From Solwaraspora sp. WMMA2065 (GTDB lineage Bacteria; Actinomycetota; Actinomycetes; Mycobacteriales; Micromonosporaceae), in assembly GCF_030345075.1 (NCBI RefSeq), contig NZ_CP128361.1:1550001-1614000 (forward strand): a stretch of DNA of 64,000 nt, given 5' to 3'. A program made the translations under genes and the position numbers. The notes below the pieces were generated by a model. It was not told the DNA's origin. It saw only the letters and a program-made list of their open reading frames with translations, and ran no database searches. Shown in pieces: positions 27,858 to 53,312 of the stretch. Numbering within the stretch: position 1 is the first letter of the stretch; each line of letters opens with the position of its first letter.

Positions 27858-29042
27858 TCACCTCGACGCGCCCGGCCCGATCGTCGACCAGACCGCCTCC
27901 ACCTCGCCGCCGCGCACCGCTGTCACCTCGCCGAGACCGGCGAACACCATGCAGACATGATTCGGAACGACCTGCACCCGCTGCCCGATCGTGAGCGCAC
28001 TCGGCTGACCCGGCCCGACCCACCGCAGCCAGCCGTGCTCCTCGGAAAGCCGGTCGATCCGCCATCCGGGCAACCCCACCAGCAGGCCGTGACCACCGTA
28101 GGCGTCGACATGCGCCGACGCCGGCAGACCGTCCTGGCCGAACGTCTTCGACCCCGCGTCGATACAGGCACGGTGCGGCTCCGGATGACTGACCACGGTG
28201 GCGAGGACGCGGACCGCACAGGTCGCCACGGTGGCGTTGCCGAGCGCGATCTGCCCCAGGTCGTTGAAGGCGTAGATACCGGGCCGGATCTCGGTCACTC
28301 CGGGCTCGGCCACCACAATCCGCGCCGAAGCGGAAGCACCGAGCGACACCGTCGACAGGGTCAGCCCGGCCGACCGGATCGCCGCAGCGGTGTCCACCAT
28401 GGCACCGGCCACCGCCCGCGAACGTCGGATCAGATCCGCCCGGTCGGTCGCCGCGTACACCGAGCCCTCGTACGTCATCACCCCGGTCAACCGGACGCCG
28501 GGCAGCTCGGCGATGTCCCAGGCGACCCGTACGGCTTCCGCCGGAGCCACCCCGCACCGGCCCAGGCCGCTGTCGACGATCAGTAGCACGTCCAACAGCC
28601 GCCCGGCCGCCGCGAACGCCTCCCCGAGCGTCCGGGCGCCGGTGACACTGTCCGCGCCGACGGTCAGTTCACAGCGCTGCGCCAACCGCACCGCGTGTTC
28701 GGCCTTGTCGCGGCCGACCAGCGGATATGCCACCGTCATACGGGCCACCCCGGCCGCCGCGAACGCTTCGGCCTCACCGAGCTTCGCCACACAGATCCCA
28801 TCTGCCCCGTGATCCAGCTGCATCGATGCGATGCGGGGGATCCGGTGGGTCTTGGCGTGCGGCCGCAACCCCACCTGATGCAGCTGGCACAGACCGGCCA
28901 TCTCGTCGAGGTTGCGCTCCAGCACATCGAGGTCGAGCAGCAGGGTGGGAGTCTCCAGGCCGGCCGGTACGGCGAACCGGTCCGGCGTTGCGGTCTGCGG
29001 GTGGATGTCGGTGGTCACGGCGTCTCCGGCAGTCGTCGTCAC
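27858..29042 (-). CDS. D-threonine aldolase/D-serine dehydratase-like PLP enzyme
   Basis: A 394-residue protein of the alanine-racemase-fold family that holds D-threonine aldolases and zinc-dependent D-serine dehydratases. The PLP lysine is in RPHAKTHRIP near residue 64, and the metal site is PNHVC near residue 362. These enzymes cleave or dehydrate D-amino acids. It lies 179 bases downstream of the microcompartment operon on the same strand and could be read through from it, but no link to 2-aminophenol is visible. It could equally belong to an independent amino-acid function. Confidence 0.75.
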   Translation of the reverse strand: MTTTAGDAVTTDIHPQTATPDRFAVPAGLETPTLLLDLDVLERNLDEMAGLCQLHQVGLRPHAKTHRIPRIASMQLDHGADGICVAKLGEAEAFAAAGVARMTVAYPLVGRDKAEHAVRLAQRCELTVGADSVTGARTLGEAFAAAGRLLDVLLIVDSGLGRCGVAPAEAVRVAWDIAELPGVRLTGVMTYEGSVYAATDRADLIRRSRAVAGAMVDTAAAIRSAGLTLSTVSLGASASARIVVAEPGVTEIRPGIYAFNDLGQIALGNATVATCAVRVLATVVSHPEPHRACIDAGSKTFGQDGLPASAHVDAYGGHGLLVGLPGWRIDRLSEEHGWLRWVGPGQPSALTIGQRVQVVPNHVCMVFAGLGEVTAVRGGEVEAVWSTIGPGASR

Positions 29043-29221: not shown

Positions 29222-29638
29222 TCACCGTCGTGCCGGTGCCACGGCGATGGCCTGGATCTCGATGAGCAAATGTGGGTGGGGTAGTTGGTGGACGGCGACG
29301 GTGGTGCGGGTGGGTCCGGTGTGGTCGAAGTGTTCGGCCCAGACCTGGTTGTAGCCGCCGAAGTCGTTCATGTTGACCAGGTACGTGGTGACCGAGACCA
29401 GATCGGTCAGGCCGGCGCCGGCGGCGGCGAGCAGGTCGGCGATGTTGGCGATCACCGCGCGGGTCTGCTCGCGGATGTCGAGTGTGGTGGTGCCGTATTC
29501 GTCGACGGTGGCGCCGGCGATGGTGTTGTCGGGGCGGCGGCTGGAGGTGCCGGAGACGAAGATGAACCCGCCGGCGACCTTGAGGTGCGGGAACTTGCCG
29601 CGTGGGGTGGCTTTGCCCGCGACCAGGTGCGCGGTCAT
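29222..29638 (-). CDS. amnD: RidA-family 2-aminomuconate deaminase (candidate AmnD)
   Basis: A 138-residue RidA/YjgF-fold protein ([17 protein letters not shown]; conserved [32 protein letters not shown]). In the 2-aminophenol meta-cleavage pathway, AmnD of this fold hydrolyses 2-aminomuconate to 4-oxalocrotonate plus ammonia. Its presence favours the amino-phenol rather than the catechol version of the compartment. The ATG at 29636-29638 overlaps the decarboxylase stop by four bases. It is the last gene of the microcompartment operon. A general RidA enamine deaminase role is the main alternative, but context is strong. Confidence 0.82.
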
Positions 29639-30438
29639 CGCGTACCGCCGGTGGTGGTGAGGGGCGTACCGCCGGTGGTGGTGAAGGCGGCGGTGCCGAG
29701 CCCTTGGACGGTGGCCCGCACGTGGACGCCGGGGGCGAGCGGCACCGCGGCGGTGGCCGCGCCGGCCAGGAAGATCCACCCGGCCCGCAGGTCCGGGCCG
29801 TGCCGGTCGGCCAGGGCGACGCCGGCGGCGAGGGCCCGGCGGGGGTCGCCGAGGATGGCCGCCGTCGACCCGGTCTGCACGGTGTGTCCGTCGATGTCCA
29901 GCAGTACGCCGAGGTTGTCGAGGCCGTCCGGGACCGGCTGCCACGGGCCGACGGTGAACAGGGCGGCGGAGGTGTTGTCGGCGATCACGTCGGGCAGCGA
30001 GAAGGTGAAGTTGGCGTACCGGGAGTCGATGACCTCCAGCGCGGGGGCGACGGCCCGCACCGCGTCGGTGAACGGCGTCCCGGGTGTCGGTGGGCGGTCC
30101 AGCAGGAAGGCGATCTCCGGTTCGACCCGGGGGTGGATCAGTCCGGAGATGTCGACGCTGCCGCCGTCGGGCACCTGCGTGGTGTCGGTGAGTTGGCCGA
30201 GGATCGGCTCATCGACGCCGACCTGGACCATCTTGGCCTGGCTGGTCAGGCCCATCTTGGCGCCGGCGAGGCGTTCGCCCCGGTCGGTGCGGCGGGCGAG
30301 AAGGGCCTGCTGCACCGCGTAGGCGGCGTCGACGTCGACCCGGTGGGTGTCGGCGAGCTGCGGAATCGGGGTGCCGGTGACGGCCGCGTCGTCGAGCCGG
30401 GCGGCGAGGTCGGCGGTGTCGATGCTGGTGGCGGTCAC
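29635..30438 (-). CDS. amnE: 4-oxalocrotonate decarboxylase (AmnE/DmpH/XylI type)
   Basis: A 267-residue enzyme of the 2-keto-4-pentenoate hydratase/decarboxylase family. Segments seen are [20 protein letters not shown], the metal-ligand block [14 protein letters not shown] and [20 protein letters not shown]. It removes CO2 from 4-oxalocrotonate to give 2-hydroxypenta-2,4-dienoate, usually in a complex with the hydratase at 32371. The start is GTG at 30438, overlapping the aldolase stop. The C-terminal tail ends in a short duplicated TTTGGT unit created by a DNA repeat. It is distinguished from the paralogous hydratase only by order and similarity, so the two assignments could be exchanged. 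Confidence 0.78.
29640..29684. repeat. Tandem duplication of 21 bp, period 24
   Basis: GCGTACCGCCGGTGGTGGTGA occurs at 29640-29660 and again, identically, at 29664-29684. The repeat encodes the last residues of the decarboxylase (TTTGGT twice) and spans the bases just before its stop, beside the ridA start. It looks like a recent duplication at the end of the gene. Confidence 0.8.
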
Positions 30439-31448
30439 GGGCGCTCTCCGTTGGCGAGGTCGAGGGCGACGTCGGTGATCATGTCTTCCTGGCCGCCGAC
30501 CATCCTGCGGCGGCCGAGTTCGATCAGGATGGACCGCACGTCGAGGCCGTAGCGGTCGGCGGCGCGTTCGGCGTGGCGCAGGAAGCTGGAGTAGACGCCG
30601 GCGTAGCCGAGCGACAGGGTTTCCCGGTCGACACGGACCGGCCGGTCCTGCAGCGGCCGGACCAGGTCCTCGGCGGCGTCCATCAGCGCGAACGTGTCGC
30701 AGCCGTGTTTCCAGCCGTGCAGGTCGGCGACGGCGGTGAACACCTCCAGGGGGGCGTTGCCGGCCCCGGCGCCCATCCCGGCGAGGGAGGCGTCGACCCT
30801 GGTGGTGCCGTGCTGCACGGCGATCACACTGTTGGCCACGCCCAACGACAGGTTGTGGTGGGCGTGGATACCGATCTGCGTGCCCGGGTCCAGCACCTGC
30901 TGGTAGGCGTCGACCCGGGCGGCGACGTCGTCCATCAGCAGCCGGCCACCGGAGTCGGTGACGTAGACGCAGTGCGCCCCGTACGACTCCATCAGCTTGG
31001 CCTGCCCGGCGAGCCCTTCGGGGGTGTTCATGTGCGACATCATCAGGAACCCGGCGACGTCCATACCCTGGTCGCGGGCCCATGAGATGTGCTGGGCGGC
31101 GACGTCGGCCTCGGTGCAGTGGGTGGCGATCCGGACGCTGGTGACGCCGAGGTCGCGGGCGGCCCGCAGGTCGTCGATGGTGCCGATGCCGGGCAGCAGC
31201 AGCGTGGTCAACGTCGCCCGGCTGATCGACTCGGCGGCAGCACGGATCCAGTCGGCGTCCGACGCGGCGCCGTGGCCGTAGGTGACGGACGAGCCGGCCA
31301 GGCCGTCGCCGTGGGCGACCTCGATCGCGTCGACGCCGGCCGCGTCCAACGCGGCGGCGATCGCCCTCACCTGGTCGACGCCGTACCGGTGCCCGATGGC
31401 GTGCATGCCGTCGCGCAACGTGACGTCCTGGACGTACAGCCGGGTCAT
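30435..31448 (-). CDS. dmpG: 4-hydroxy-2-oxovalerate aldolase (DmpG/BphI type)
   Basis: A 337-residue class II aldolase of the HMGL-like family. Typical blocks are [20 protein letters not shown] near the N terminus (metal-ligand Asp), [14 protein letters not shown], and [20 protein letters not shown] (metal-ligand His pair). It cleaves 4-hydroxy-2-oxovalerate to pyruvate and acetaldehyde. In known systems it forms a channelling complex with the acylating acetaldehyde dehydrogenase, which is the next gene upstream in the operon (four-base overlap, ATGA). Intact and of normal length. Confidence 0.9.
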
Positions 31449-32371
31449 GACCGCGCCTCCGCTCGGACAGCGACCAGACGTTCCGCTGTGCGCAGCGCCG
31501 CCGAGGTCATGATGTCGAGGTTGCCGGCGTACGCGGGCAGGTAGTGCCCGGCACCGGACACTTCGAGGAACACCGACACCTGGATGCCGGTGAAATGGCT
31601 GCCCAGCGCCGGCACGTACGCGTCGACCGGATCGAACTGCACCCGCTGTTTGAGCCGGTAGCCGGGCACGTACCCGGCGACCGACGCCACCATGGCCGCC
31701 ACCGAGTCGGCCACCGCCTCCCGATCGACGCCGGCCGGGGTCAGGCAGTAGACGGTGTCACGCATCAGCAGCGGCGGATCCGCCGGGTTCAGCACGATGA
31801 CCGCCTTGCCCTTGCCGGCGCCGCCGACGACTTCCAGGGCGCGGGCGGTGGTCCGGGTGAACTCGTCGATGTTCGCCCGGGTGCCCGGACCGGCCGAGCG
31901 GGACGCGATCGACGCGACGATCTCCGCGTACGCCACCGGGGCCACCGCCGCGACGGCGGCGACGACCGGCACCGTCGCCTGCCCACCGCAGGTCACCATG
32001 TTGACGTTCGACTCGGCCAAATGGGCGTCCAGATTCACCGGCGGCACCACGTACGGGCCGACCGCGGCCGGGGTCAGATCGACCACCGTCCGCCCGTAAG
32101 CCTGCAGGATCTCGTTGTTGCGCCGGTGCGCGCCCGCCGACGTGGCGTCGAACACCAACCCGACGTCGGCGAACTCGGGCATCGCGACCAGGCCGTCGAC
32201 CCCATCACTCGTGGTCGCCACGCCGAGGCGGCGGGCGCGGGCCAGCCCGTCGGATTCCGGGTCGATGCCGACCATCGCCACCATGTCCAGCGACTCCGAC
32301 AACCGCAGCACTTTGATCATCAGGTCGGTGCCGATGTTGCCCGACCCGATCACCGCCACCCCGACACCCAC
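31445..32371 (-). CDS. dmpF: Acetaldehyde dehydrogenase, acetylating (DmpF/BphJ type)
   Basis: A 308-residue NAD+/CoA-dependent enzyme that turns acetaldehyde into acetyl-CoA. The N-terminal Rossmann motif is [16 protein letters not shown], and the catalytic Cys is in [10 protein letters not shown] near residue 126. With the aldolase it forms a two-protein channel. Its start is a GTG at 32369-32371 that shares one base with the TAG stop of the hydratase. Whether acetaldehyde is oxidised inside the shell or the last steps lie outside is unknown. Confidence 0.9.
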
Positions 32372-33186
32372 TACCGTCCCTCCCCTGACTTGGCGCTGAA
32401 TCTGGTCCGCACACTGCCGAGCCCGGCGATCCGCGCCTCGTACGCCGCCCCCGGGGTGACCGGCACCATCGGGCCGAGCGCACCGGAGAGCACGACGTCG
32501 CCGGCCCGCAGCGGATCCCCGGCGGCGGCCAGGGTCGACGCCAGCCAGGCGACAGCGTGCACCGGGTTACCGAGGCAGGCCGCCCCGGCACCGACCGACA
32601 CCGGCACACCGGCCGATTCCAGCACCATGCCGCACCCCCGCAGGTCCACCGAGGCGGGCGGCACCGGCCGGTCGCCGAGCACGAACAGCCCCGACGAGGC
32701 GTTGTCCGCCACCGTGTCCACGATCGAGATGTCCCAGTCGGTGATCCGCGAGTCGACGATCTCGACCGCCGGCAGCAGGAAGTCGGTCGCCCGCAGCACA
32801 TCGACCACGGTCGCCGGCCCGTCCGGCAGGTCGGCGCCGAGCACGAACGCCACCTCCGCCTCCACCCTGGGCTGGATCAGCCCGCCCAGGTCGACCTCGT
32901 CGCCGTCGCAGACCGCCATGTCGGCGAAGAGCACCCCGAAGTCGGGCTGGTAGACGCCGAACGCGGCCTGCACCGCCGGCGACGTCAGGCCGATCTTCGC
33001 CCCCACCCGACGCCGCCCGGCCCTTGTCCAACCGGCCACCAACTCCCGCTGCACCGCGTACGCGGCCGCCACGTCACCGACCGGCAGCAGCCGGTCCCGC
33101 AACGGCGCACACGGCACCCCGGAGTCGTACGCCCCGGCCAGCGCCGCGACAGCCGCCTCGACATCAACATCCACAGTCACGCTCAT
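32371..33186 (-). CDS. amnF: 2-oxopent-4-enoate hydratase (AmnF/DmpE/MhpD type)
   Basis: A 271-residue enzyme that adds water to 2-hydroxypenta-2,4-dienoate to give 4-hydroxy-2-oxovalerate. It shows [17 protein letters not shown], the metal-binding block [16 protein letters not shown] and [20 protein letters not shown]. It is a paralogue of the decarboxylase at 29635, and both types normally assemble together so that the unstable dienol is passed on. ATG 33184-33186 overlaps the stop of the semialdehyde dehydrogenase by three to four bases. Assignment as hydratase rests on its closer match to MhpD-type sequences. Confidence 0.8.
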
Positions 33187-34715
33187 GTCAGATCCACACA
33201 GACGTTTGTCAACTCGGAGTAGAAGTCCAGCGAGTGCACGCCGCCCTCCCGGCCCACCCCGGAGGCCTTCACCCCACCGAACGGGGTCCGCAGGTCCCGC
33301 AGGAACCACGTGTTCACCCACACGATGCCCGCGTCCAACCGGGCACCGGCCCGGTGCGCCCGCCCCACATCACGGGTCCACACCGTCGCCGCGAGGCCGT
33401 AGTCGGAGTCGTTGGCCAGCGCGAACGCCTCCTCCTCGGTGTCGAACGGGGCGATGTGGCAGATCGGGCCGAACACCTCCTCCCGCACCAGCCGCGCAGA
33501 CTGACCGAGCCCGGTCAACACTGTCGGCTGCACGTACGCGCCACCATCACGGGCGTCACCGAAGGCCGGCACGCCACCACCGGCAAGGATCTGCCCGCCT
33601 TCGGCGCGGGCCAGGTCGTAGAAACCGAGCACCTTCTCCCGATGCGCCCGCGAGATCAGCGGCATCGTCGAGATCGTCTCGTCGGCGGGCCAGCCGTACC
33701 GGGCGTCACGGGCGGCAGCCGCCAACCGGTCCACGAACTCGTCGAACACCGGCCGCTGCACATACAGCCGCTCCGTGCACAGACACACCTGACCGCCGTT
33801 GGTGAACGACGACCGCACCGAACCGGCGACCGCCGCGTCCAGGTCGGCGTCGGCGAACACCAGGCCGGCGTTCTTGCCGCCCAACTCGAACGACACCGCC
33901 TTCACCCCGTCAGCCGCCGCCCGCATGATCGCCGACCCGGTCGCCGACTCACCGGTGAACGTGATCGCGTCCACCCCCGGATGGGTGGTCAGCCACTCCC
34001 CCGCCGCACCCGGCCCGAAGCCGTGCACCAGGTTGAACACCCCGTCGGGCACGCCGGCCGCCGCCATCACCTCCGCCAACAACGTCGCCGACGCCGGCGT
34101 CTCCTCCGACGGCTTCACCACGACAGCGTTGCCGCACGCCAGCGCCGGAGCCACCTTCCACGTCAGCAGCAGCAGCGGCAGATTCCACGGCACGATCACC
34201 GCGACCACGCCGACAGGCTTACGGACCGCGTAGTTCAACGCCCGACCACCCGACGACGTGACCGTCGTGAACGACTCCGTCGGCGCCGTCGCAGCGATCT
34301 CCGCGAACGCCCGAAAATTCGCCGCCCCACGCGGAATGTCCAACGTCCGGGCCTGACCGACCGGCTTACCGGTATCCGCCACCTCAGCAGCCACCAGATC
34401 ATCGAACCGGCGGTCCAACTCGTCGGCCACCGCCCGCAGCACCACCGCCCGGTCCCGCTCAGCCATGCCGCCCCACGGCCCGCGCAACGCCGACCGCGCC
34501 GCCGCCACCGCCGCGTCGACCGTCGCAGAATCGGCCTCCGCCACCTCGAACACCGTCTCCCCGGACACCGGCGACACCTTCGCAAACCACTTCCCCGCAT
34601 CGACGAACCGGCCGTCGACGAAACTACGCAACAGGCCGGGACCGTCGGCGGCGGGCCGACCGACGTACAGGTCGGGGTGCCACAGAGCGGGCGACGTCGG
34701 TGCGATGGCTGCCAT
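33183..34715 (-). CDS. amnC: 2-aminomuconic 6-semialdehyde dehydrogenase (ALDH family), with N-terminal extension
   Basis: A 510-residue NAD-dependent aldehyde dehydrogenase. Key motifs are VPWNLPLLLLTWKVAPALAC, the general-base Glu in FELGGKNAG and the nucleophile in GGQVCLCTERLYV. It oxidises the ring-cleavage semialdehyde to 2-aminomuconate. Compared with XylG/AmnC-type relatives, it has about 28 extra N-terminal residues (AAIAPTSPALWHPDLYVGRP), a possible encapsulation tag. ATG 34713-34715 has a GGAAGG site six bases upstream; a TTG at 34719-34721 is an alternative. It follows the BMC-P shell gene. As a pathway core enzyme it is a likely compartment cargo. Confidence 0.88.
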   Translation of the reverse strand: MAAIAPTSPALWHPDLYVGRPAADGPGLLRSFVDGRFVDAGKWFAKVSPVSGETVFEVAEADSATVDAAVAAARSALRGPWGGMAERDRAVVLRAVADELDRRFDDLVAAEVADTGKPVGQARTLDIPRGAANFRAFAEIAATAPTESFTTVTSSGGRALNYAVRKPVGVVAVIVPWNLPLLLLTWKVAPALACGNAVVVKPSEETPASATLLAEVMAAAGVPDGVFNLVHGFGPGAAGEWLTTHPGVDAITFTGESATGSAIMRAAADGVKAVSFELGGKNAGLVFADADLDAAVAGSVRSSFTNGGQVCLCTERLYVQRPVFDEFVDRLAAAARDARYGWPADETISTMPLISRAHREKVLGFYDLARAEGGQILAGGGVPAFGDARDGGAYVQPTVLTGLGQSARLVREEVFGPICHIAPFDTEEEAFALANDSDYGLAATVWTRDVGRAHRAGARLDAGIVWVNTWFLRDLRTPFGGVKASGVGREGGVHSLDFYSELTNVCVDLT

Positions 34716-34754
34716 GTTCAACCTTCCGTTGCCGGTACGGGGATGTGTCGGGGG

Positions 34755-35015
34755 TCAGTCCTTGGTGGCGACGCCGCTGCCCTGGTCAGCGACCAGGGCC
34801 ACGACGGCAGCGTCGACTGTCGCTTCACCGGTCGCGGCGGCGGCCGCCTCGTCGGTGGCGACCAGGACGGTGCTGCCGGTGCCGGCGTTCATCAGGTCGA
34901 CGGCGACCCGCTGCGGCCCGTCCGGATGCTCGCGAATCAACACCAGGCGGCGACCCTGAAGGGTCGCGACGATCCGGTCGGGCCAGACCTTGCCGAGCAC
35001 TTCCGCGAGGATCAT
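34755..35015 (-). CDS. Microcompartment pentameric shell protein (BMC-P, EutN/CcmL family)
   Basis: An 86-residue EutN/CcmL-fold protein (ILAEVLGKVWPDRIVATLQG at the start; VLVATDEAAAAATGEATVDA later). Such proteins form pentamers that cap the vertices of microcompartment shells. The ATG at 35013-35015 shares a base with the stop of the second BMC-H gene, so the shell genes are coupled. It is the only BMC-P gene in the window. Together with two hexameric shell proteins this is enough in principle to close a shell. Confidence 0.9.
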   Translation of the reverse strand: MILAEVLGKVWPDRIVATLQGRRLVLIREHPDGPQRVAVDLMNAGTGSTVLVATDEAAAAATGEATVDAAVVALVADQGSGVATKD

Positions 35016-35341
35016 CAGCTGTCACCTTGCAGCGACGCCATGACAACCCGGATCCGGGTCGACTCGCCCTCCTCCAGCAGTGCCGAGGTGGCCGGATGCG
35101 GCTTGGGGTAGATCTGCGAGCTGCGCAGGTCACCGTGTTGACGGATGGCGGCCTCGCCGGCTGACACTGCCTGCCGTACGGCCGCCAGGGTGCCCTGCAC
35201 AGCAGCGGCGAGATAGCCGCTAGTGACCCGTTCGACGGCGATACACCGTACGTCCGCGGTCTTGATCATGGCTTCGATCCCTGCGGAGAGGGCGACGATG
35301 CCCCGGGTCTCCACGATTCCGATCGCCTTCTCTGAGGACAT
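35015..35341 (-). CDS. Microcompartment hexameric shell protein (BMC-H), second copy
   Basis: A 108-residue single BMC-domain protein: KAIGIVETRGIVALSAGIEA, then MIKTADVRCIAVERVTSGYL and AVRQAVSAGEAAI, in the order expected for the PduA/CcmK fold. Hexamers of this type tile the shell facets, and their central pores pass substrates. A C-terminal extension of about 20 residues follows the core. Ribosome site AGAAGGAG precedes ATG 35339-35341. Its sequence differs clearly from the neighbouring BMC-H, suggesting two facet tiles with different pores. Confidence 0.92.
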   Translation of the reverse strand: MSSEKAIGIVETRGIVALSAGIEAMIKTADVRCIAVERVTSGYLAAAVQGTLAAVRQAVSAGEAAIRQHGDLRSSQIYPKPHPATSALLEEGESTRIRVVMASLQGDS

Positions 35342-35380
35342 GGCACTTCTCCTTCTGGCTGTGTCGCCGGCCGGGCCGGC

Positions 35381-35674
35381 TCAGTTGCCGACGAGTCCGG
35401 GGTCGATGGCCAGCGCGGTGACCGCGTCGCATGGGCTGGCGAAGACGATCGACCGGACCGGGCGACCGGTCTTGGCTCGGGCAGTCTCCTCGCCGATGTC
35501 GACGGCTTCCTCCACTGTGGCGAGGTCGCCGCGGACCGCCACGGCGACGATTCCGCCGCCGAGGCGTACGACTCCGGTTACTTCGACCTCGGTCGCCTTG
35601 ACCATGGCGTCCACCGCGTCGAAGATCGGAATGAATCCCTCGGCTTCGACGAAGCCCGCAGCGGCGTTACGCAT
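35381..35674 (-). CDS. Microcompartment hexameric shell protein (BMC-H), first copy
   Basis: A 97-residue single BMC-domain protein (RNAAAGFVEAEGFIPIFDAV; AMVKATEVEVTGVVRLGGGI; ATVEEAVDIGEETARAKTG). The glycine-rich LGGGIVAV stretch corresponds to the region lining the hexamer pore. ATG 35672-35674 follows a strong AGGAGG ribosome site, fitting the high synthesis needed for a facet protein. It lies between the dioxygenase subunit and the second BMC-H gene, separated from each by short gaps. Confidence 0.92.
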   Translation of the reverse strand: MRNAAAGFVEAEGFIPIFDAVDAMVKATEVEVTGVVRLGGGIVAVAVRGDLATVEEAVDIGEETARAKTGRPVRSIVFASPCDAVTALAIDPGLVGN

Positions 35675-35749
35675 CGGGTTCCTCCTGTCGTTGGTGTTTC
35701 GGGTGCCCGCTGGTCGGGCTGTCGGTCATGCGGTGCGGGCCGGCGCCGT

Positions 35750-36586
35750 TCACGCGGGTGCCGGCAGATTCCAGGACAGGACGGCAGCGCCGGTGCCCCA
35801 CAGTGCTCCGTAGCTGTGCAGTTGCCCCGGGGTTGCGGCGACTCCGGTGCCGGCGAGGAAGGCGAAAGCCCGGAACTGGCTGTCGGCCTGGGCCTGGCGG
35901 GCGTAGTCTTCGCGGACCGCGAGGACTTGGTCGGTGTCGCCGGCGGTCAGCATCTGCAAGATTCGTTCGTTCCACCGGTCGTGTGCCGGCTCGGCGATGC
36001 GGTCCTGGTCCGGCTCGATCCACTGCTGGATGAGCCCGGAGGACAGTCCGCTGACCACCACCACCGCCGCTCGGACACCGGCGTCACGGGCCGCCTCGGC
36101 GCCGGCCCGGCCGACCTGGGCGAGGGTGTCGGCGTCGGCGTACAGGTTGCACGACACCTGCGCCCAGCGCAGGGTGCGCTGCGGGTCGAGCAGCGTGGAG
36201 GTGACGATGGTCCCGGTATCGATCGGGAAGCCCTGGTAGCGGGTGCGGCGTGCCTGCATGCCGTCGGCGTCCACCCGGGCCGCCCAGCGTTCGGTGAACT
36301 CTACGTCGAAGCGCAGGTCGTAGCTGAGGTGGCCGTAGTCGTAGGCGTACCAGTTCTCGTCGGTGTGCGCCCCACGCGGGTTCGGGTCGCACTGGAACTG
36401 GTGGCCGAGCACGGTGAACCACTGGGTGGACAGCAGCAGGACGACGTCCGGCTCGATGGCGCGCAGCCGGTCGCCGACCGTACGGGCGGAGTCGGCCAGC
36501 GCCGCCCAACTGGTGGCGGGCTTGTCGGCGAGCAGATGCGGCATGCCGGGCAGCAGTACGCCGGCCTGGATTCCACGGTCAGTCAT
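35750..36586 (-). CDS. amnA: 2-aminophenol 1,6-dioxygenase alpha-like subunit (LigB family, non-catalytic)
   Basis: A 278-residue class III extradiol dioxygenase-family protein (GVLLPGMPHLLA; DPNPRGAHTDENWYAYDYGH; VVVVSGLSSGLIQQWIE). Only the first iron-ligand His (His17) is kept; where the partner subunit has HAPHW this one reads STQWF, so it cannot hold iron alone. That matches the AmnA alpha subunit, a structural partner of catalytic AmnB in Pseudomonas. It overlaps the amnB stop by eight bases. The pair should form the alpha2beta2 enzyme that opens the ring of 2-aminophenol. Confidence 0.85.
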   Translation of the reverse strand: MTDRGIQAGVLLPGMPHLLADKPATSWAALADSARTVGDRLRAIEPDVVLLLSTQWFTVLGHQFQCDPNPRGAHTDENWYAYDYGHLSYDLRFDVEFTERWAARVDADGMQARRTRYQGFPIDTGTIVTSTLLDPQRTLRWAQVSCNLYADADTLAQVGRAGAEAARDAGVRAAVVVVSGLSSGLIQQWIEPDQDRIAEPAHDRWNERILQMLTAGDTDQVLAVREDYARQAQADSQFRAFAFLAGTGVAATPGQLHSYGALWGTGAAVLSWNLPAPA

Positions 36587-37568
36587 CGACGTTCTCCGGT
36601 GTCCACTCGACCACCGCGTTGCCGGTTCCGATGATCGTGCCGTAGCCGAGCACGTCGCCGGCGATGTCCGGCCAGCCGAGCGCGGACAGCAGCCAGGTGA
36701 GGCTGCCGGCCTTCGTCTCGGAGGCGGTGGCTTCGATGTGCTCGGGGATGAGTTCGCGTAACCGGCTGGTCGGCCCCTGGCGAATCGTTTCCAGCAGCTT
36801 CATGTCCCAGCGGTACTGGTGGTTGTTGTACGGGTGCTCGCGTTCCATGTCCTCGGGCAGCTGGGGTTCCTCGTGCCAGTGCAGGTGGGACAGGGAGTTG
36901 GAGGCGAGTAGCACGGCGCGTCGGCCGGTGTTCTCGATCGCCCGGCGGGTCGCTTCGCCGAGCACCTCCATCTGGCCGAGGGACGCGTCGGAGTAGAAGT
37001 ACGGGTTGTTGTTGGCCGACAGCGACACCACCGGGATGTCCCAGTCGGGGTTGACCATGTGTAGTGCGCCGATGGTGGCGTAGTCGACCCGTACCCCGGG
37101 GTCGTGCAGCTTGCTGGTGACCAGGCCGAGGTCGGCGGCTTCGTCGGCGATGGCCTCGGCGAGTGGTACGTCGGTGTGGAAGTCGTAGTGGTAGCGGAAC
37201 AGATGCGGGAAGATCGGCTCTACGGAGATGCCGCGCGGGTTGGGTACACAGTTGACGTGGTGGCCGACCATGGTGATCCAGTGCGGGGCATGCACGATCA
37301 GCACGTCGGGCCGGTGCACCTCGCGAATCCGGCGGCGGAGTCGATGGTACGCCCAGCGCAGCACTTCCCAACCGCCTTGTGACCGGGGTTCGTTCTGCGG
37401 CGGGTTCTCGCCGTAGATCAGGTGCGGCGGGTGCGGGCTGAGGTAACCGGCGACGATACCGGGTCGGCGGCCTGCCGGGGCGGGGCGGGCGGCGTCAGCG
37501 GAGTCCGGTCGCCGGGTGCGGGTCGTGGTGCCCCGGGTCGGTGCGGGTAGTCGGAACACCTTGCTCAT
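36579..37568 (-). CDS. amnB: 2-aminophenol 1,6-dioxygenase catalytic (beta-like) subunit with N-terminal extension
   Basis: A 329-residue class III extradiol dioxygenase. The iron site is visible: His46/His49 in SPHPPHLIYG, His93/His96 in IVHAPHWITM, and a C-terminal glutamate block (IEATASETKAGSLTWLLSAL). It cleaves 2-aminophenol with O2 to the 2-aminomuconic semialdehyde, which is unstable and cyclises to picolinate if not captured. The first 36 residues (SKVFRLPAPTRGTTTRTRRP and an Ala/Pro/Arg stretch) precede the normal start of the fold and look like a short tag plus disordered linker. The start overlaps the hyuB stop by four bases. Catechol is a plausible second substrate. Confidence 0.88.
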   Translation of the reverse strand: MSKVFRLPAPTRGTTTRTRRPDSADAARPAPAGRRPGIVAGYLSPHPPHLIYGENPPQNEPRSQGGWEVLRWAYHRLRRRIREVHRPDVLIVHAPHWITMVGHHVNCVPNPRGISVEPIFPHLFRYHYDFHTDVPLAEAIADEAADLGLVTSKLHDPGVRVDYATIGALHMVNPDWDIPVVSLSANNNPYFYSDASLGQMEVLGEATRRAIENTGRRAVLLASNSLSHLHWHEEPQLPEDMEREHPYNNHQYRWDMKLLETIRQGPTSRLRELIPEHIEATASETKAGSLTWLLSALGWPDIAGDVLGYGTIIGTGNAVVEWTPENVDD

Positions 37569-39595
37569 CGCGGTCCTCCTGTCCGGGCCGGGGCGTCGCG
37601 CAGGACCCGCAGCAGGCAGCGGTCACCGGGCTGGGCGCCGAGGATCCGCAGCCCGTCGTCGTCGAGCGCGGCCTGGTGCCGGGCGACGCCGGGGTCGTGG
37701 CGCACCCAGGCACGCAGCGGTGCGGGGTGGGCGCCGTGCAGTTCGATCAGCGTGTCGGCGGGCAGACCGTCGGCGGGGTTGGTGTAGACGAGGCGACGGC
37801 GGCCCCGCTGCCCGGTGTAGGCCGGCCCGGTACTGGTGGTGACCTGGTACCAGTGGCGAGCGGCGCGGGCCTGGTCGCGGGCGCCGCCGGTGGCCGCTTC
37901 GTCGAGGAGACCGGTGTCGTCGCAGACCACGCCGTAGCGGTCGAGGGCCTGGTCGGTGGTGAGGTAGCCGGCTGCGACGTCGGCGGCCACCAGGTCGGGG
38001 TCGCGGGTGAGCGGGTCGCCCCAGCCGCCGCCGCCGGCTGACTCCATCACCAGGACGTCGCCTTCGCGCATCCGGTGCCCGGCGACCTTGCCGGGGGTGT
38101 CGAAGTCGATCCGCCGGCCGGTGCGGCGCAGGTAGGTGGCGGTGGGGGCGCCGGGCGCGCCGGTGGAGAGTCCGTACGGCGCGACGGTGGTGCGGTCGGT
38201 CTGTACCGAGTAGGCACCGCTGGTGGCCAGCAGCCGGGTGGCCCGTCGGGCACCGAGGCCGCCGCGGTGCCGGCCGGCGCCGCCGGAGCCGGTACGCAGC
38301 TCACACGCTTCGACGAGGATCGGGATCTCGGTTTCCAGCCGTTCGACGGACTGGATGGTGGAGATGTCGCCGAGATCGACGGGGTTCATCGCGCTCGGGC
38401 CGTCGGACCCGAGGAATCCTCCGTTACCGCCGGCCGGGTAATCGTAGTAGAGGTACGGCTGGCCGGTGCGTTCGTCGATGCCGCCGATCAGGTTCTGGAA
38501 GGTCGTACCGAACTGGTCGGCGGCGATCAGGTCCGGAGCGACCTGGCTGAGGGCGGCCATCACCGCGGAGATGACCCGTTTGCGGACCTCGCTGTGCGCG
38601 TTGGCCGGTGCCGGGTAGGTGACGTGTACGACGGTTCCCGGGTCGGTGTGCACGGTCAGTGGCCGGAAGGCGCCGTGGTTGACCAGCCCGCCAGGGTCCA
38701 ACGCGGACTTGACGGCGATGAAGACCCCGGCGGTGGTCATTGCGAGCGACGAGTTGACGACGGCGGCGACCTGCGGCGACGAGCCGCGGAAGTCGGCGAC
38801 GAGTTGGTCACCGGTGATGGTCAACGCGCAGCGCACCAGGGCGGCGTCGTACTCGCCGTCGGTGTAGAGATCGAGGTAGTCCTCGTAGTGGTAGGTGCCG
38901 TCCGGCAGGTCGCGGATCTGGTCGCGTAGTCGCCGCTCGGTGCGGTCCATGTTGGCCTCGACGCAGCCGAGGATCAGGTCGCGGCCGTACCGGTCGACGA
39001 GTTCGCGTAGCCGGCGCTGCGCGGTGTGGCAGGCGGCGATGCTGGACTCCAGGTCTCCCTGACGTTCGTCGGCCATCCGGACGTTGGCGAAGAGGATCCG
39101 CGTCGCGGCGATGTTGGGCTGGCCCGCGTCGACCAGTCGGATCGGTGGAACCCGCAGCCCTTCCTGCAGGATCTCGGTGGCCTTCCCGGAGACGCTGCCG
39201 GGTGTCATGCCGCCGATGTCGGCCCAGTGCATGCGTACGCAGGGGAACAGGAACAGCTCTCCGTCGACGAACACCGGGCTGATCAGCGTGACGTCGTTGA
39301 GGTGGCTGCCGCCGCGGTACGGGTCGTTGACCAGGTAGATGTCACCGGGCCGGAACTCGTCACGGTAGTCGGCGAAGATCTCCTTCACCGATGCCGGCAT
39401 CGCGATGACGTGGCCGGGCATGTCGCGGCCCTGAGCGACCATCTCGCCGTCCGCGTTGAACAACGCGCACGAGAAGTCCTGCGCGTCGGCGATCACCGGG
39501 GAGTGCGCCGTGCGGAAGATCGTCTGGCGCATCTCCCGCACGATCGAGATCAGCCCTTCGGTGACGATCTCGAGATCGATCGGGTTCAGGGGCAT
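37565..39595 (-). CDS. hyuB: Hydantoinase B/oxoprolinase-family subunit (HyuB) with C-terminal extension
   Basis: A 676-residue HyuB protein (PLNPIDLEIVTEGLISIVRE; GDIYLVNDPYRGGSHLNDVT; CVRMHWADIGGM; AGGGGWGDPLTRDPDLVA). HyuA/HyuB complexes use ATP to open cyclic amides (hydantoin, oxoproline) or, in acetone and acetophenone carboxylases, to fix bicarbonate. Relatives end near the GWGDPL region plus about 40 residues; here about 110 more follow (YTGQRGRRRLVYTNPADGLP), a possible extra beta domain. It is the first gene of the microcompartment operon, coupled to amnB, while hyuA lies in the next operon. ATG 39593-39595 is preferred, because the frame above it is the 15-bp repeat region. Confidence 0.88.
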   Translation of the reverse strand: MPLNPIDLEIVTEGLISIVREMRQTIFRTAHSPVIADAQDFSCALFNADGEMVAQGRDMPGHVIAMPASVKEIFADYRDEFRPGDIYLVNDPYRGGSHLNDVTLISPVFVDGELFLFPCVRMHWADIGGMTPGSVSGKATEILQEGLRVPPIRLVDAGQPNIAATRILFANVRMADERQGDLESSIAACHTAQRRLRELVDRYGRDLILGCVEANMDRTERRLRDQIRDLPDGTYHYEDYLDLYTDGEYDAALVRCALTITGDQLVADFRGSSPQVAAVVNSSLAMTTAGVFIAVKSALDPGGLVNHGAFRPLTVHTDPGTVVHVTYPAPANAHSEVRKRVISAVMAALSQVAPDLIAADQFGTTFQNLIGGIDERTGQPYLYYDYPAGGNGGFLGSDGPSAMNPVDLGDISTIQSVERLETEIPILVEACELRTGSGGAGRHRGGLGARRATRLLATSGAYSVQTDRTTVAPYGLSTGAPGAPTATYLRRTGRRIDFDTPGKVAGHRMREGDVLVMESAGGGGWGDPLTRDPDLVAADVAAGYLTTDQALDRYGVVCDDTGLLDEAATGGARDQARAARHWYQVTTSTGPAYTGQRGRRRLVYTNPADGLPADTLIELHGAHPAPLRAWVRHDPGVARHQAALDDDGLRILGAQPGDRCLLRVLRDAPARTGGPR

Positions 39596-39630: not shown

Positions 39631-39675
39631 CCGGACGGACCACAACCGGATGGACCACCACCGATTGGACCATGA
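39631..39675. repeat. Three tandem 15-bp repeats in the IclR-hyuB promoter gap
   Basis: Units are CCGGACGGACCACAA (39631-39645), CCGGATGGACCACCA (39646-39660) and CCGATTGGACCATGA (39661-39675); the first two differ at two positions, the third at four from the second. A weaker fourth copy may precede at 39616-39630. They lie between the divergent iclR and hyuB starts and look like binding sites for a regulator, most simply the adjacent IclR protein. Confidence 0.75.
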
Positions 39676-39692
39676 TGTGAGCCTTGTGTTAT

Positions 39693-39729: not shown

Positions 39730-40536
39730 ATGTCGTCTGTCACCGACCCCGGTCGCGAGTCCGGCACCCAGGCACTCGATCGCGCGCTGGCCGTGCTGCT
39801 TGCGTTCCGGCGCGACACCCCCGAACGCAAGGTCAGTGACGTCAGCCGGGAGCTCGGGCTGCACAAGTCGACCGCCAGCCGGTTGTTCCGGGCGCTCGCC
39901 GACGCCGGCTTCCTGCAGCGCAACGAGGAGACCGGCGCGTACCGGCTGGGAGTCACCGTGTTCGACCTCGGCGCCCGCTTCCTGGCCGGGCTCGACATGC
40001 ACGCCATCGCCCGACCGTTGCTGCACCAGCTGGCCGAGGAGCAGGGCGAGTCGGTCAACCTCGCCATCCGCGACGGCCTGGACGCGATCTCGATCGACCT
40101 GGTGACCGGGTCGCACAGCCTGCAGCTGGTCTCCCGGCTGGGCCGACGCATTCCGTTGTGGTGCAGCGCGGCCGGCAAGGCGCTGTTGATCGACATGGAC
40201 GACGACCAGGTCCGCGAGCTGCTGGCCGGGGCAGGCTGGGCCCGGCTGACCCGACGCACGATCACCGACATCGACGTCTTCCTGGCCGATCTCGCCGGGG
40301 TGCGGGAACGCGGCTGGGCGCTCAACGACGAGGAGAGCGAGGACGGCCTGCGGGTCGTCGGCGCACCGGTGCGGGACCGGCTCGGCGCGGTGACCGCGTC
40401 GATCAGCGTCTCCGGCCCGATCTTCCGGCTGGACAGCCCGCAACAGGTCGCCACGCTCGCCACCGCCGCGGTCCGCACCGCCGACGAGCTGTCCCGCCAG
40501 CTGGGCCACGGCGTCGGACAGATCTGGGGCAGCTGA
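39730..40536 (+). CDS. IclR-family transcriptional regulator
   Basis: A 268-residue regulator. The N-terminal winged helix (ERKVSDVSRELGLHKSTASR followed by LFRALADAGFLQRNEETGAY) is followed by the IclR effector domain (PLLHQLAEEQGESVNLAIRD; LWCSAAGKALLID; GWALNDEESEDGLRVVGAPV). IclR proteins bind small aromatic or organic acids and act as activators or repressors of nearby catabolic genes. It is divergent from the hyuB-microcompartment operon, with repeats in the 134-base gap, so that operon is the likely target. ATG 39730 follows GGGAAGG at 39719-39725. The ligand may be 2-aminophenol or its precursor. Confidence 0.88.
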   Translation: MSSVTDPGRESGTQALDRALAVLLAFRRDTPERKVSDVSRELGLHKSTASRLFRALADAGFLQRNEETGAYRLGVTVFDLGARFLAGLDMHAIARPLLHQLAEEQGESVNLAIRDGLDAISIDLVTGSHSLQLVSRLGRRIPLWCSAAGKALLIDMDDDQVRELLAGAGWARLTRRTITDIDVFLADLAGVRERGWALNDEESEDGLRVVGAPVRDRLGAVTASISVSGPIFRLDSPQQVATLATAAVRTADELSRQLGHGVGQIWGS

Positions 40537-40548
40537 CCGGCGACCGGC

Positions 40549-42189
40549 TCAGAAGTGCTGCTGCACGACATCCGGATCTACCTTCACGTGCAGCAGCACC
40601 GGCCCGGTCAGTGGCAGCAGCGCGTCGAACGCCGCCGAAACGGAGGCCTCGTCATGCGCCCGGTACGCGGTGACACCGAGCGCGCCGGCCACCGCGGCCA
40701 GGTCCCGGTACGGGAAGCGGGCGATGCCCGGGTCAGCACCGGCCGGTCGCAGCTTGCGCACCTCCGCCCCGTACGCGCCGTCGTCCAGCACGATCACCAG
40801 CACCGGAGCGCCGACCCGGGCCAGGGTGTCCAGCTCACCCAACGCGGTCAGCAGACTGCCGTCGCCCTCGAACGCCACCACCGGGCGGTCCGGGCGGCCG
40901 AGCGCGGCACCGATCGCGTACGCCACACCGACGCCGATACTGCCGAACTCCCACGGCGCGACCAGCGAGCGGTCCACGGCCGGCGAGTCCAGGTAGAGGT
41001 TGGGCCAGCCGCCGAAGTGGCCGACGCCGACTACCGTCGTGCGGGGCAGCGGCAACCGACGGGCGCAGATCGCCATCAGCCGGCGGGGGTCGATGTGCCG
41101 GGCACCGGTGGGCTCCGGGCCGAGTCCGGCGAACGGGTCGGCGTCGCGGATCGCCCGGGCCAGCTGCGGCGTACGCCAGCCGTCCGGCTCCGACCCGGGC
41201 CGCGCCGACTCCAGTGCCCCGGTCAACGCCCGGGCGGCCAGCGCCGCGTCGCCGACCAGCCCACCGTGCACCGGCCAGCGGGCACCGATCGCCGCCGGAT
41301 CCCGGTCGACGCTGTACACCTGCGCGGCGCCGAACAGCTGTCCGTGATCGGCCGTCCACCGGTTCAGGCAGGCACCGAACGTCACGACGAGATCCGCCTC
41401 GCGCAGCACGTCCCGGGTCAGCGGGCGGGCCAGCCCACCGGCAACGCCGAGGGCGTACGGATGGCCCGCGAACAGGCCGGCGGCCATCAGGCTGGTGACC
41501 AGCACGGCTCCGGCGCGGTCGGCCAACGCGGTCAGCTCGGGTCCGGCGTGCACCGCGCCTCGGCCGGCGAGGATCACCGGGTGCCGGGCCCGACGCAGTC
41601 GGTCCGCCAACCCGGCGACCGCCATCGGGTCGGGTGCCAGCGGTAGTGGTCCGGCCGGCGCGACAGCGGCCCCGAGCGGTACGGCCGGCCGGTCCCCGGC
41701 CGGTTCATCCTGCAGGTCCAACCCAATGTCGAGCACCACCGGCCCCGGTCGCCCGACGGCCTCGCGGACCCCGGCTGCGACGTCGCGCGACACCGTCGAC
41801 ACGCCGGTCATCGGCACGAAGGCACCGGCGGTGGCCAGGGCGAAGGGCTGCTGAGGAAAGTTCTGCACGTGCAGCGGGTCACTCGCCGGGGTGTCCCCGG
41901 CGAGCAGCAGCAGCGGTGTGCCCGCCTGCCGGGCGATGGTCAACGCCGGGCCGGCAGCGGCCAGACCCGGACCCTGGGTGACCGTGGCCACCGCGCACCG
42001 GCCGGTGACCCGCGCCCACCCGTCGGCCATCATCACCGCAGCGTTCTCGTTGCGGGCCGCCACGAACCGGACCCCGTGCCGGGCGACCAGATCGGCCACC
42101 AGGAACATGTTCGCATCGCCGAGCAGGCCGAACACGGTGTCCACCCGGTGATCGACCAACGCGTCCGCGATCGCCTGGTAGACCTTCAC
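40549..42189 (-). CDS. Thiamine diphosphate-dependent enzyme (acetolactate synthase/decarboxylase-like)
   Basis: A 546-residue ThDP enzyme in three domains. The N-terminal domain has the conserved glutamate context (FVAARNENAAVMMADGWARV), and the C-terminal domain shows the ThDP motif GDGSLLTALGELDTLARVGA ending in LDDGAYGAE. The family includes acetolactate synthase, benzoylformate decarboxylase and related 2-oxoacid decarboxylases and lyases; the substrate cannot be chosen. It is the last gene of the second operon, overlapping the enoyl-CoA hydratase stop by four bases, so it probably works on the imported precursor. It converges with iclR with a 12-base gap. Confidence 0.8.
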   Translation of the reverse strand: MKVYQAIADALVDHRVDTVFGLLGDANMFLVADLVARHGVRFVAARNENAAVMMADGWARVTGRCAVATVTQGPGLAAAGPALTIARQAGTPLLLLAGDTPASDPLHVQNFPQQPFALATAGAFVPMTGVSTVSRDVAAGVREAVGRPGPVVLDIGLDLQDEPAGDRPAVPLGAAVAPAGPLPLAPDPMAVAGLADRLRRARHPVILAGRGAVHAGPELTALADRAGAVLVTSLMAAGLFAGHPYALGVAGGLARPLTRDVLREADLVVTFGACLNRWTADHGQLFGAAQVYSVDRDPAAIGARWPVHGGLVGDAALAARALTGALESARPGSEPDGWRTPQLARAIRDADPFAGLGPEPTGARHIDPRRLMAICARRLPLPRTTVVGVGHFGGWPNLYLDSPAVDRSLVAPWEFGSIGVGVAYAIGAALGRPDRPVVAFEGDGSLLTALGELDTLARVGAPVLVIVLDDGAYGAEVRKLRPAGADPGIARFPYRDLAAVAGALGVTAYRAHDEASVSAAFDALLPLTGPVLLHVKVDPDVVQQHF

Positions 42190-42947
42190 CGGTCCACCGC
42201 CGGATGCCGGTCCGCCGCTGGGCGGCGGTACGGGCCGGCAGGCCGCAGCGCGACGCTCAGCGCACCCAGATAGGAGTCGGTGGCCACCGCGTCGAAGCGC
42301 GGGCCGGCCAGCCGGGCGGTCCGCTTGGTCATCGACCGGCCCAGCGCCGGCACCGCCAGCAGCCGGTGGGCCAGTTCGGTGCCGGCATCGGCCACCCGGT
42401 CGGGCGGCACCAACTCGGTCACCAGTTCCAGCTGGTGCAGCCGGGCCGCGTCGATCCGCTCGCCGAGCAGCAGCCAGCGTTTGGCCCGGTCGGCACCGAC
42501 CAGGTCGGCGAGGATCGCCATGCCGCCCCAGGTCAAGGGGATGCCGAAGCCCACCTCGGGGAACGTGAAGAAGCAGGTGTCGGCGGCGAGGCGCAGGTCG
42601 CTGGCCAGCCCGAGGATCGCACCGGAGCCGATCGCCGGACCGTTGAACGCGGTCACGGTGGTCTGCTCCAGGCGGTACCAGCGCTCGACCAGCTCGGCGG
42701 TGCGCCGCTGCACGCCCATGGTGGTGGCGGCGTCAAGAGTCGCCAGTTCGGTCAGGTCGGTGCCGGCGCAGAACGCGGTGCCGGCACCGGTCAGCAGCAC
42801 TACCTCGACAGTGTCGTCGCGGCCGAGCTCGTGCAGCACCTGCTCGAACTGCCCGAGCATGGCCAGGTCGAAGCTGTTGCGCCGACCGGTACGGTCCAGT
42901 GTCACCACCGCAAGCCGCTCCGCACGGTGCAGGTGTACCGACGTCAC
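42186..42947 (-). CDS. Enoyl-CoA hydratase/isomerase family protein (precursor operon)
   Basis: A 253-residue crotonase-fold protein. Oxyanion-hole segments are LTGAGTAFCAGTDLTELAT and FNGPAIGSGAILGLASDLRL; PEVGFGIPLTWGGMA follows. It should hydrate, hydrolyse or isomerise an acyl-CoA made by the ligase encoded two genes upstream. The start is a GTG at 42945-42947 overlapping the lyase gene stop, and its stop overlaps the ThDP gene start. The substrate is unknown. Confidence 0.82.
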   Translation of the reverse strand: MTSVHLHRAERLAVVTLDRTGRRNSFDLAMLGQFEQVLHELGRDDTVEVVLLTGAGTAFCAGTDLTELATLDAATTMGVQRRTAELVERWYRLEQTTVTAFNGPAIGSGAILGLASDLRLAADTCFFTFPEVGFGIPLTWGGMAILADLVGADRAKRWLLLGERIDAARLHQLELVTELVPPDRVADAGTELAHRLLAVPALGRSMTKRTARLAGPRFDAVATDSYLGALSVALRPAGPYRRPAADRHPAVDR

Positions 42948-50608: not shown

Positions 50609-50645
50609 GGCTGTCCCCAGTTCATTGCGACTCATAATGTGGTTC

Positions 50646-53267: not shown

Positions 53268-53312
53268 GGCTCCGTTACCTCTCAGTGGGCTTTAGTGAGC
53301 GCACGGTTGGTA

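Follow-up and report, generated by a model that had tools for sequence, protein, structure and literature searches.

A 2-aminophenol-type aromatics microcompartment operon in Solwaraspora and an upstream operon that probably shares its promoter site and may supply its substrate

Bacterial microcompartments (BMC) of the aromatics (ARO) class were described by Doron, Sutter and Kerfeld (mBio 2023; PMC10470539), and according to the main text of that paper, from which our comparisons are drawn, complete ARO loci occur in Micromonospora and Verrucosispora, with hyuA located upstream and hyuB usually inside the operon. The dioxygenase AmnAB and the aldehyde dehydrogenase AmnC of Micromonospora rosaria are reported there to be active in vitro with a side reaction to picolinate, and the encapsulation model holds that this loss to picolinate is prevented. 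The same text describes (i) a 30-35 residue N-terminal extension on ARO AmnB; (ii) an ARO aldehyde dehydrogenase without a detectable encapsulation peptide; and (iii) no microcompartment association for the 2-aminophenol pathway outside ARO; the natural precursor is stated to be unknown. Here we analyze a 64-kb stretch (hereafter the window, to which all positions refer) of the 6.74-Mb, single-contig genome of Solwaraspora sp. WMMA2065, which carries a twelve-gene operon of this kind at about 1.58 Mb. We consider it very probable that this operon builds a 2-aminophenol ARO compartment and that a co-regulated upper operon supplies the 2-aminophenol.

Genes were assigned by Pfam and NCBIfam profile searches together with comparisons to the PDB (Table 1). 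The shell operon occupies positions 39595 to 29222 of the minus strand and encodes, in order, hyuB, amnB, amnA, two BMC-H shell proteins, a BMC-P vertex protein, amnC, a hydratase, an acetaldehyde dehydrogenase, an aldolase, a decarboxylase, and a RidA-family deaminase. A preliminary description of the window had given these twelve genes with the same order, strand and span, and each was found to fall in the expected Pfam or NCBIfam family. Its statement that most junctions are four-base overlaps needs correction: the overlap is exactly four bases at five of the 11 junctions and 1-8 bases at eight, and the three remaining junctions are gaps of 75, 39, and 39 bases. Likewise, hyuB, said to be fused into the operon, is its first cistron and not part of a protein fusion; counted from the ATG at 39595, HyuB has 676 residues, with the open reading frame (ORF) opening at 39673.

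The locus belongs to the 2-aminophenol subtype of ARO microcompartments, the type published in 2023, as it presents the shell trio, AmnA and AmnB adjoining the shell genes, an extended AmnB, an adjacent IclR gene (39730-40536), and a deaminase gene. AmnB residues 1-326 match the beta subunit of the M. rosaria ARO dioxygenase (7TXY chain B) with the N-terminal extension included (614 bits), whereas the non-compartment enzyme 3VSG is aligned from residue 37 only (398 bits). Residues H46, H96, and E284 of AmnB align with H13, H62, and E251 of 3vsg_B, which we take to be the iron ligands. AmnC passes the TIGR03216 cut-off (807 bits) and is thus an AmnC-type aldehyde dehydrogenase, not a member of the coenzyme A (CoA)-dependent BMC family. 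The profile searches that the preliminary description had suggested gave 61.5 and 68.1 bits to PF00936 and 56.8 bits to PF03319 for the shell proteins, and 86 and 47 bits to LigB for the dioxygenase subunits; besides the two BMC-H proteins, no further PF00936 protein was found in the 6.74-Mb genome. M. rosaria DSM 803 (L010) has a collinear locus with the twelve genes in this order, the divergent IclR gene, the upstream hyuA, the AmnB extension, and the three-protein shell (PMC10470539), and the twelve proteins are 60-90% identical between the two. The window differs in a BhcC-like gene that follows the operon and in that it would represent another genus of the family, to judge from a genus that accounts for 7 of the genomes available and from M. 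marina being placed in a different one. Placement in a known ARO class with an unknown precursor, as in the preliminary description, is therefore in line with PMC10470539, where the complete pathway and the position of hyuB within the operon, which had been put forward as distinctive, were also already described; we accordingly dropped the latter as a novelty. A chance origin of the cluster is excluded because of the family scores and a gene order kept in 15 other Micromonosporaceae genomes. The amn/cnb system of Comamonas testosteroni CNB-1 (nitrobenzene, chloronitrobenzene), with an upper pathway that begins with nitroarenes, has the same ring-cleavage chemistry, and its cnbCb product (2-aminophenol 1,6-dioxygenase beta subunit) is 57% identical to AmnB; however, the match begins at AmnB residue 38, so cnbCb has no extension.

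Upstream of the shell operon lies a second operon on the minus strand (the upper operon, 50608-40549) encoding the binding protein, ATPase, and permease of an ATP-binding cassette (ABC) transporter, followed by hyuA, an acyl-CoA ligase, a lyase, a crotonase, and a thiamine diphosphate (ThDP)-dependent enzyme. Its junctions are overlaps of 1-4 bases, except for 82 bases before hyuA. Relatives were collected by one AmnB scan that returned 52 loci (L003-L054; L001 and L002 were left out of the tables), with gene names taken from our own ORF caller and BLAST against the window proteins, and from Pfam for ten relatives in each of two scans. BMC-H1 was detected beside or near AmnAB at 32 of the 52 loci, and ten of these 32, all from Micromonosporaceae, have the upper module of the window (type I: hyuA, ligase, lyase, crotonase, ThDP enzyme, and hyuB). 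Together with the window, the same-genus genomes G013, G014, and G016, and G744 and G912 from a family search, these ten make up 16 distinct type I genomes; L073 duplicates L008 and L081 duplicates L023, while L072 and L074 have at most 90.5% and 95.4% DNA identity, respectively, to the other type I loci compared. The order of the shell operon was found to be conserved in all 16, as far as L005 (contig ending after the acetaldehyde dehydrogenase gene), L074 (stretch ending in the hydratase gene), and L012 and L072 (genes split by the ORF caller) can be read, and the upper operon lies upstream of it in 16 of 16. The transporter precedes hyuA in 14 of the 14 type I genomes read over the whole stretch; L072 has the permease only, and the upstream region of L005 is outside the data.

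The lyase was found to track the shell gene within the family. Of the 250 family genomes, eight have the lyase (E ≤ 1e-150) and nine have BMC-H1 (E ≤ 1e-20), with all eight lyase genomes having BMC-H1 and none of the 241 genomes without BMC-H1 having the lyase (Fisher P = 2.7e-14, with shared ancestry ignored); the two sets of 250 genomes were taken as identical since the listed handles agree, most genomes without a match being unlisted. The ninth BMC-H1 genome (G925) holds a different compartment and is without the lyase. At E ≤ 1e-125, the lyase was present in 1 of 396 genomes of the phylum, the window's own, and in 1 of 299 genomes of the phylum of L033, again its own. L033 (L069), from a metagenome-assembled genome (MAG) labelled Betaproteobacteria and considered for a possible ARO shell in Proteobacteria, has the order hyuA-ligase-lyase-crotonase-IclR-hyuB-amnB-amnA; no PF00936 protein was found in this MAG, in which the contig stops inside amnA. 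A plasmid search for the lyase gave 511 records, all below 60% identity, and one for AmnB gave none above 60% among 35 records. As a separate observation, a gene divergent from the transporter operon and MaoC-dehydratase-like by eye occurs at L061, L064, L065, L067, L070, and L074 and was not seen in the window's genus; the corresponding cluster comprises seven loci, five of them among those listed here, with L074 additional.

The two operons also have a promoter site in common. Seventeen type I rows (16 genomes, as L073 is L008) have TTCAYAATAT in the hyuB promoter, L003 and L059 as single-base variants. The inverted repeat GGACCACAWTATGGTCC follows it, of which L003, L004, L006, and the window's genus have imperfect copies. 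A block like ACCACAATATGAGCC, with variants, was found upstream of the binding-protein gene in 14 of 14 rows. A matrix trained on 10 distinct hyuB-promoter sites from relatives outside the window's genus was used to scan both strands of the window and scored 21.1 at the hyuB promoter and 16.2 at the transporter promoter, with the next position at 13.2; only 2 of 2,000 column-permuted matrices reached 16.2 in the transporter promoter. The start of the binding protein was set to 50608 because the operator covers the start of the longer ORF at 50635. Thus, judged from these sites, the shell operon and the upper operon look like one regulon, with the IclR protein presumably binding both candidate operators.

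The NCBIfam families nearest to HyuA and HyuB are the caprolactamase subunits, at 449 bits for HyuA and 300 bits for HyuB against cut-offs of 1000, indicating proteins that are related to caprolactamase and not equivalogs. HyuAB could instead be an ATP-dependent carboxylase or another activating enzyme, comparable with acetophenone carboxylase, and the subunits of that enzyme do match HyuA and HyuB (234 and 137.5 bits, respectively); however, the caprolactamase matches are stronger, and in the PDB comparison N-methylhydantoinase scored 264 bits vs 118 bits for the carboxylase, such that we regard this alternative as unlikely, if worth keeping in mind. Since HyuAB is nearer to caprolactamase and N-methylhydantoinase than to the carboxylases, the route most likely starts with an ATP-driven ring opening of a cyclic amide. 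HyuB in addition carries an extra C-terminal domain of about 85-100 residues, which is found in type I HyuB including that of L033 and is absent from the three type III-like HyuB proteins compared. This tail is predicted to be a double-psi beta-barrel, based on an AlphaFold model from a 10-sequence alignment (predicted local distance difference test score of 85, predicted template modelling score of 0.76) for which Foldseek returned mostly double-psi beta-barrels and the N-domains of VCP/Cdc48 and NSF (E of 3e-6 to 2e-4 among the 50 matches listed). Strong matches to the tail (E ≤ 1e-28) were confined to the same eight type I genomes among the 250 family genomes, five more being marginal (E of 1e-4 to 7e-4), and no copy was detected on plasmids at E 0.01. 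That the tail docks to shell or cargo is a guess.

A second alternative takes catechol or a ring-substituted aminophenol, rather than 2-aminophenol, as the true substrate. In vitro, catechol and 2-amino-5-chlorophenol are further substrates of the M. rosaria ARO dioxygenase, and loci of a catechol subtype, with a tautomerase in place of the deaminase, have been proposed (PMC10470539). Two tautomerase-family matches outside the locus leave a catechol side route possible; however, their positions (1.78 and 2.94 Mb) are remote from the operon, which closes with a RidA-type deaminase gene found at the same place in the type I loci that reach that far, and the turnover of the M. rosaria enzyme is highest with 2-aminophenol (PMC10470539). 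We therefore judge this substrate reading to be rather improbable. It is more improbable still that HyuAB and the upper operon form a separate pathway joined to the shell operon by linkage only, for although this upper module is missing from most other ARO loci found, hyuB and amnB overlap by 4 bases, both operons have the promoter site, and the lyase follows the shell gene in the family and, at E ≤ 1e-125, matches none of the 396 phylum genomes besides the window's own.

Under the reading we favor, a shell of two BMC-H proteins and one BMC-P protein would enclose at least AmnAB, with the N-terminal extension of AmnB serving for its recruitment, and probably AmnC, such that 2-aminomuconic semialdehyde would be oxidized before cyclizing to picolinate; the deaminase, decarboxylase, hydratase, aldolase, and acylating dehydrogenase would then lead to pyruvate and acetyl-CoA. 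The upper operon, apparently under the same IclR-type operator, would import a precursor and convert it to 2-aminophenol: the ring of a cyclic amide would be opened at the expense of ATP by HyuA (upper operon) and HyuB (shell operon), the ligase is suggested to form a CoA ester, and the lyase, crotonase, and ThDP enzyme would release the remaining side chain. Gene content, order, conservation, the common promoter site, and co-occurrence support this reading, and enzyme activity is known from the M. rosaria proteins; encapsulation in this strain, the pairing of regulator and operator, and the lactam step with its place in the order are what we infer. Several points weigh against it. (i) M. rosaria fails to grow on 2-aminophenol (PMC10470539). 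(ii) HyuAB could carboxylate or act on an unrelated amide. (iii) The genome does encode the two tautomerase-family proteins (34.6 and 23.6 bits). (iv) A plain consensus with ≤3 mismatches finds the hyuB site alone in the window (0.09 expected by chance), with at least one match also in 8 of 100 shuffles; the transporter site is clear only by matrix. (v) L033 has neither the operator block in its hyuB promoter nor a ThDP gene, and because of the latter the ThDP step may be dispensable or differ.

The precursor can be narrowed further only tentatively. It is possible, though on balance we would not yet expect it to hold in full, that (i) the precursor is a cyclic amide or carbamate with a 2-aminophenol unit, such as a microbial lactam or one of the benzoxazolinones or benzoxazinones of plants, which enters through the co-regulated ABC transporter and has its ring opened by HyuAB; (ii) the barrel-tailed B subunit is specific to ARO and possibly docks to shell or cargo; (iii) about 20 genes form one regulon; and (iv) other lineages reach the compartment via other upper modules, including an aryl-kinase route. 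Benzoxazolinone itself is a guess, and the terms benzoxazol and benzoxazin are absent from the main text of PMC10470539; a literature search on it listed three papers, two dealing with detoxification by fungi and one with NAT genes of microbes.

Two features of the presumed cargo were examined across the relatives. AmnB begins with the motif xxVF[RHQK], to which the MSKVFR of the window conforms, at 29 of the 32 loci that are linked to a shell; among the 19 AmnB proteins that have a readable start and no shell, the motif occurs once (L033). Of the three shell-linked exceptions, L021 and L027 are cut by a contig edge and L024 reads SRIFR. The published AmnB extension is thereby narrowed to a short motif that accompanies the shell. 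Type I AmnC was found to have a conserved leader of about 20 residues, and where its start could be read, the pattern W[SHP][PS].L occurs in 14 of 15 distinct type I loci (L006 is a variant). Of the eight shell-linked loci outside type I whose start is likewise readable, L022 has the pattern and seven do not (L011, L024, L026, L028, L029, L031, and L032), and it was not detected in shell-less relatives with a readable start; the leader is a candidate targeting peptide. A second ORF in the ARO locus of L024 (L024:17286-18569), found by pattern search, has a start resembling the AmnB motif (MAKVFHSGVGDRT); it could encode a further cargo protein, represent a decayed copy, or be no real gene.

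Other ARO lineages were found to have other upper modules. Sixteen of the 32 shell-linked loci have a phosphoenolpyruvate (PEP)-utilizer protein, which in 15 of these is accompanied by a PPDK_N protein; in L023, BMC-P is directly followed by the PEP-utilizer gene, inside which the contig ends. The PPDK_N protein of L022 has HpeI (9GOJ) as its best PDB match (217.5 bits). Such pairs are known from the two-component aryl dikinases CreHI, HpeHI, and PpsAB (PMC12167813), a likeness drawn here from profiles and one PDB match only and not extending to the locus type of the window. Upper pathways thus appear to differ among ARO lineages, with the kinase lineage apparently using an HpeHI/CreHI-like pair. 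Two further shell-linked loci (L028 and L031) have a distant HyuAB with an M24-type protein, which points to amide substrates having been used more than once, as two ARO lineages have different HyuAB; the NCS1-type transporter of L031 was read by eye, Pfam giving no family there. The remaining shell-linked loci are L024 (HyuAB some 4 kb off), L026 (no module), and L013 and L018 (cut short). The 20 loci without BMC-H1 are L033 and 19 others, mostly MAGs of other phyla with AmnB 47-57% identical; among the 20, L052 (Actinomadura montaniterrae) has a partial AmnB match of 77%.

Several neighboring arrangements were observed alongside these lineages. Shell-less AmnAB clusters (L036, L039, L042, L048, L050, L051, and L053), mostly from Myxococcota and Planctomycetota MAGs, have short-chain dehydrogenase/reductase (by eye), luciferase-like monooxygenase, and Asparaginase_II-family genes upstream of amnC, with Pfam support from L053 only. 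L075 and L080 have PPDK_N/PEP-utilizer pairs beside class I extradiol dioxygenase-like genes and a Rieske oxygenase (by eye), which suggests phosphorylation-dependent aromatic pathways. In G925 (Micromonosporaceae), L071 (C8:83000-102900) has three BMC-H genes, one BMC-P gene, and a PPDK_N/PEP-utilizer pair with a HAD gene as in kinase-type ARO loci, together with a Trp_dioxygenase-family gene, a PALP enzyme (TrpB2-like by eye), trpB- and trpA-like genes (by eye), a luciferase-like monooxygenase, and a PrnB-family gene; no AmnB match was found in the whole G925 genome at E 0.001. L071 is possibly a tryptophan or indole compartment; a literature search found no paper joining a bacterial microcompartment with tryptophan dioxygenase, and the word tryptophan is absent from the main text of the 2021 catalogue (PMC8217296).

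In the upper operon, the crotonase has one of its two usual catalytic glutamates substituted (GAILG / FPEV, by eye). The BhcC-like gene is not supported as a pathway member, being seen only in loci of the window's own genus (L056, L058, and L060) and unmatched in the 52 AmnB loci (≤10 kb of flank), and probably lies outside the operon core. Near the regulon, an Rfam Transposase-2 RNA (RF03015, 69.8 bits) at 53309-53375 overlaps the 3′ end of an ORF (53321-54655) that is transposase-like by eye.

Table 1. Features of the shell operon, the upper operon, and their surroundings in the window
Feature	Position	Strand	Basis
D-threonine-aldolase-like pyridoxal phosphate enzyme (BhcC-like)	27858..29018	-	NF045642 149.5 bits, cut-off 690; 203 bases downstream of operon
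RidA-family deaminase, presumed 2-aminomuconate deaminase (AmnD), marks 2-aminophenol subtype	29222..29638	-	PF01042 88.8 bits
2-oxo-3-hexenedioate (4-oxalocrotonate) decarboxylase	29635..30438	-	TIGR03218 212.6 bits, below cut-off 350.55
4-hydroxy-2-oxovalerate aldolase, DmpG communication domain	30435..31448	-	TIGR03217 558 bits, above cut-off; PF07836
Acetaldehyde dehydrogenase (acylating)	31445..32371	-	TIGR03215 454 bits, above cut-off
2-keto-4-pentenoate hydratase, ATG 33186	32371..33186	-	NF008461 291 bits, below cut-off 350
amnC, 2-aminomuconic semialdehyde dehydrogenase, leader with LWHPDL motif	33183..34715	-	TIGR03216 807 bits, above cut-off
BMC-P vertex protein	34755..35015	-	PF03319 (EutN_CcmL) 56.8 bits
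BMC-H shell protein 2, cerulean type, PKPH in translation	35015..35341	-	PF00936 68.1 bits
BMC-H shell protein 1, lipstickred type, without PKPH	35381..35674	-	PF00936 61.5 bits; 90% to M. rosaria L010
amnA, dioxygenase alpha subunit	35750..36586	-	LigB 47 bits; conserved partner of amnB
amnB, catalytic beta subunit of 2-aminophenol 1,6-dioxygenase, ARO-type N-terminal extension (MSKVFRLP...)	36579..37568	-	7txy_B 614 bits
hyuB, hydantoinase/lactamase B subunit, ATP-dependent	37565..39595	-	PF02538 Hydantoinase_B 558 bits
Candidate operator upstream of hyuB, AGGCTCACATCATGGTCCAA; relatives AGGACCACAWTATGGTCC, inverted repeat	39665..39684	-	Conserved promoter-alignment block; best matrix match in window
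IclR-family regulator, divergent from hyuB	39730..40536	+	BhcR 186 bits, PcaR/PcaU 171 bits, both below cut-off; conserved in type I loci
ThDP-dependent enzyme, oxalyl-CoA decarboxylase / 2-hydroxyacyl-CoA lyase / acetolactate synthase superfamily	40549..42189	-	Three thiamine pyrophosphate domains; PDB best BbmA 137, 2-hydroxyacyl-CoA lyase 128 bits
Crotonase-superfamily enzyme, enoyl-CoA hydratase-like	42186..42947	-	EchA19 133 bits, below cut-off
Fumarase-superfamily lyase, PcaB / adenylosuccinate-lyase-like	42944..44302	-	PRK08937 456, PRK09053 437 bits, below cut-offs; PDB best 1re5 331 bits
AMP-forming acyl-CoA ligase	44299..45864	-	PF00501 253.8 bits
hyuA, hydantoinase/lactamase A subunit	45864..47882	-	Caprolactamase alpha 449 bits, below cut-off; acetophenone carboxylase gamma 234
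ABC transporter permease	47965..48789	-	NF040733 and TauC about 156 bits, below cut-offs
ABC transporter ATPase, nitrate/taurine type	48789..49652	-	TIGR01184 233.5 bits, below cut-off
ABC transporter substrate-binding protein	49649..50608	-	SsuA-type family 76.5 bits, below cut-off; conserved upstream of hyuA
Candidate operator, second copy, upstream of transporter operon	50627..50646	-	Second-best matrix match in 64 kb

What is added to the published picture is an upper operon that has a promoter site in common with the shell operon and tracks the shell gene, although neighboring genes may be drawn in the supplementary figures of PMC10470539; the preliminary description did not mention this operon, which is relevant to the question of the precursor. 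The main text of PMC10470539 leaves the natural ARO substrate open, with 2-aminophenol no growth substrate for the model organism. In the Micromonosporaceae lineage, the candidates would thereby be narrowed to amide-containing precursors, and the named enzymes, transporter, and operator make the natural-substrate question of ARO compartments directly testable.

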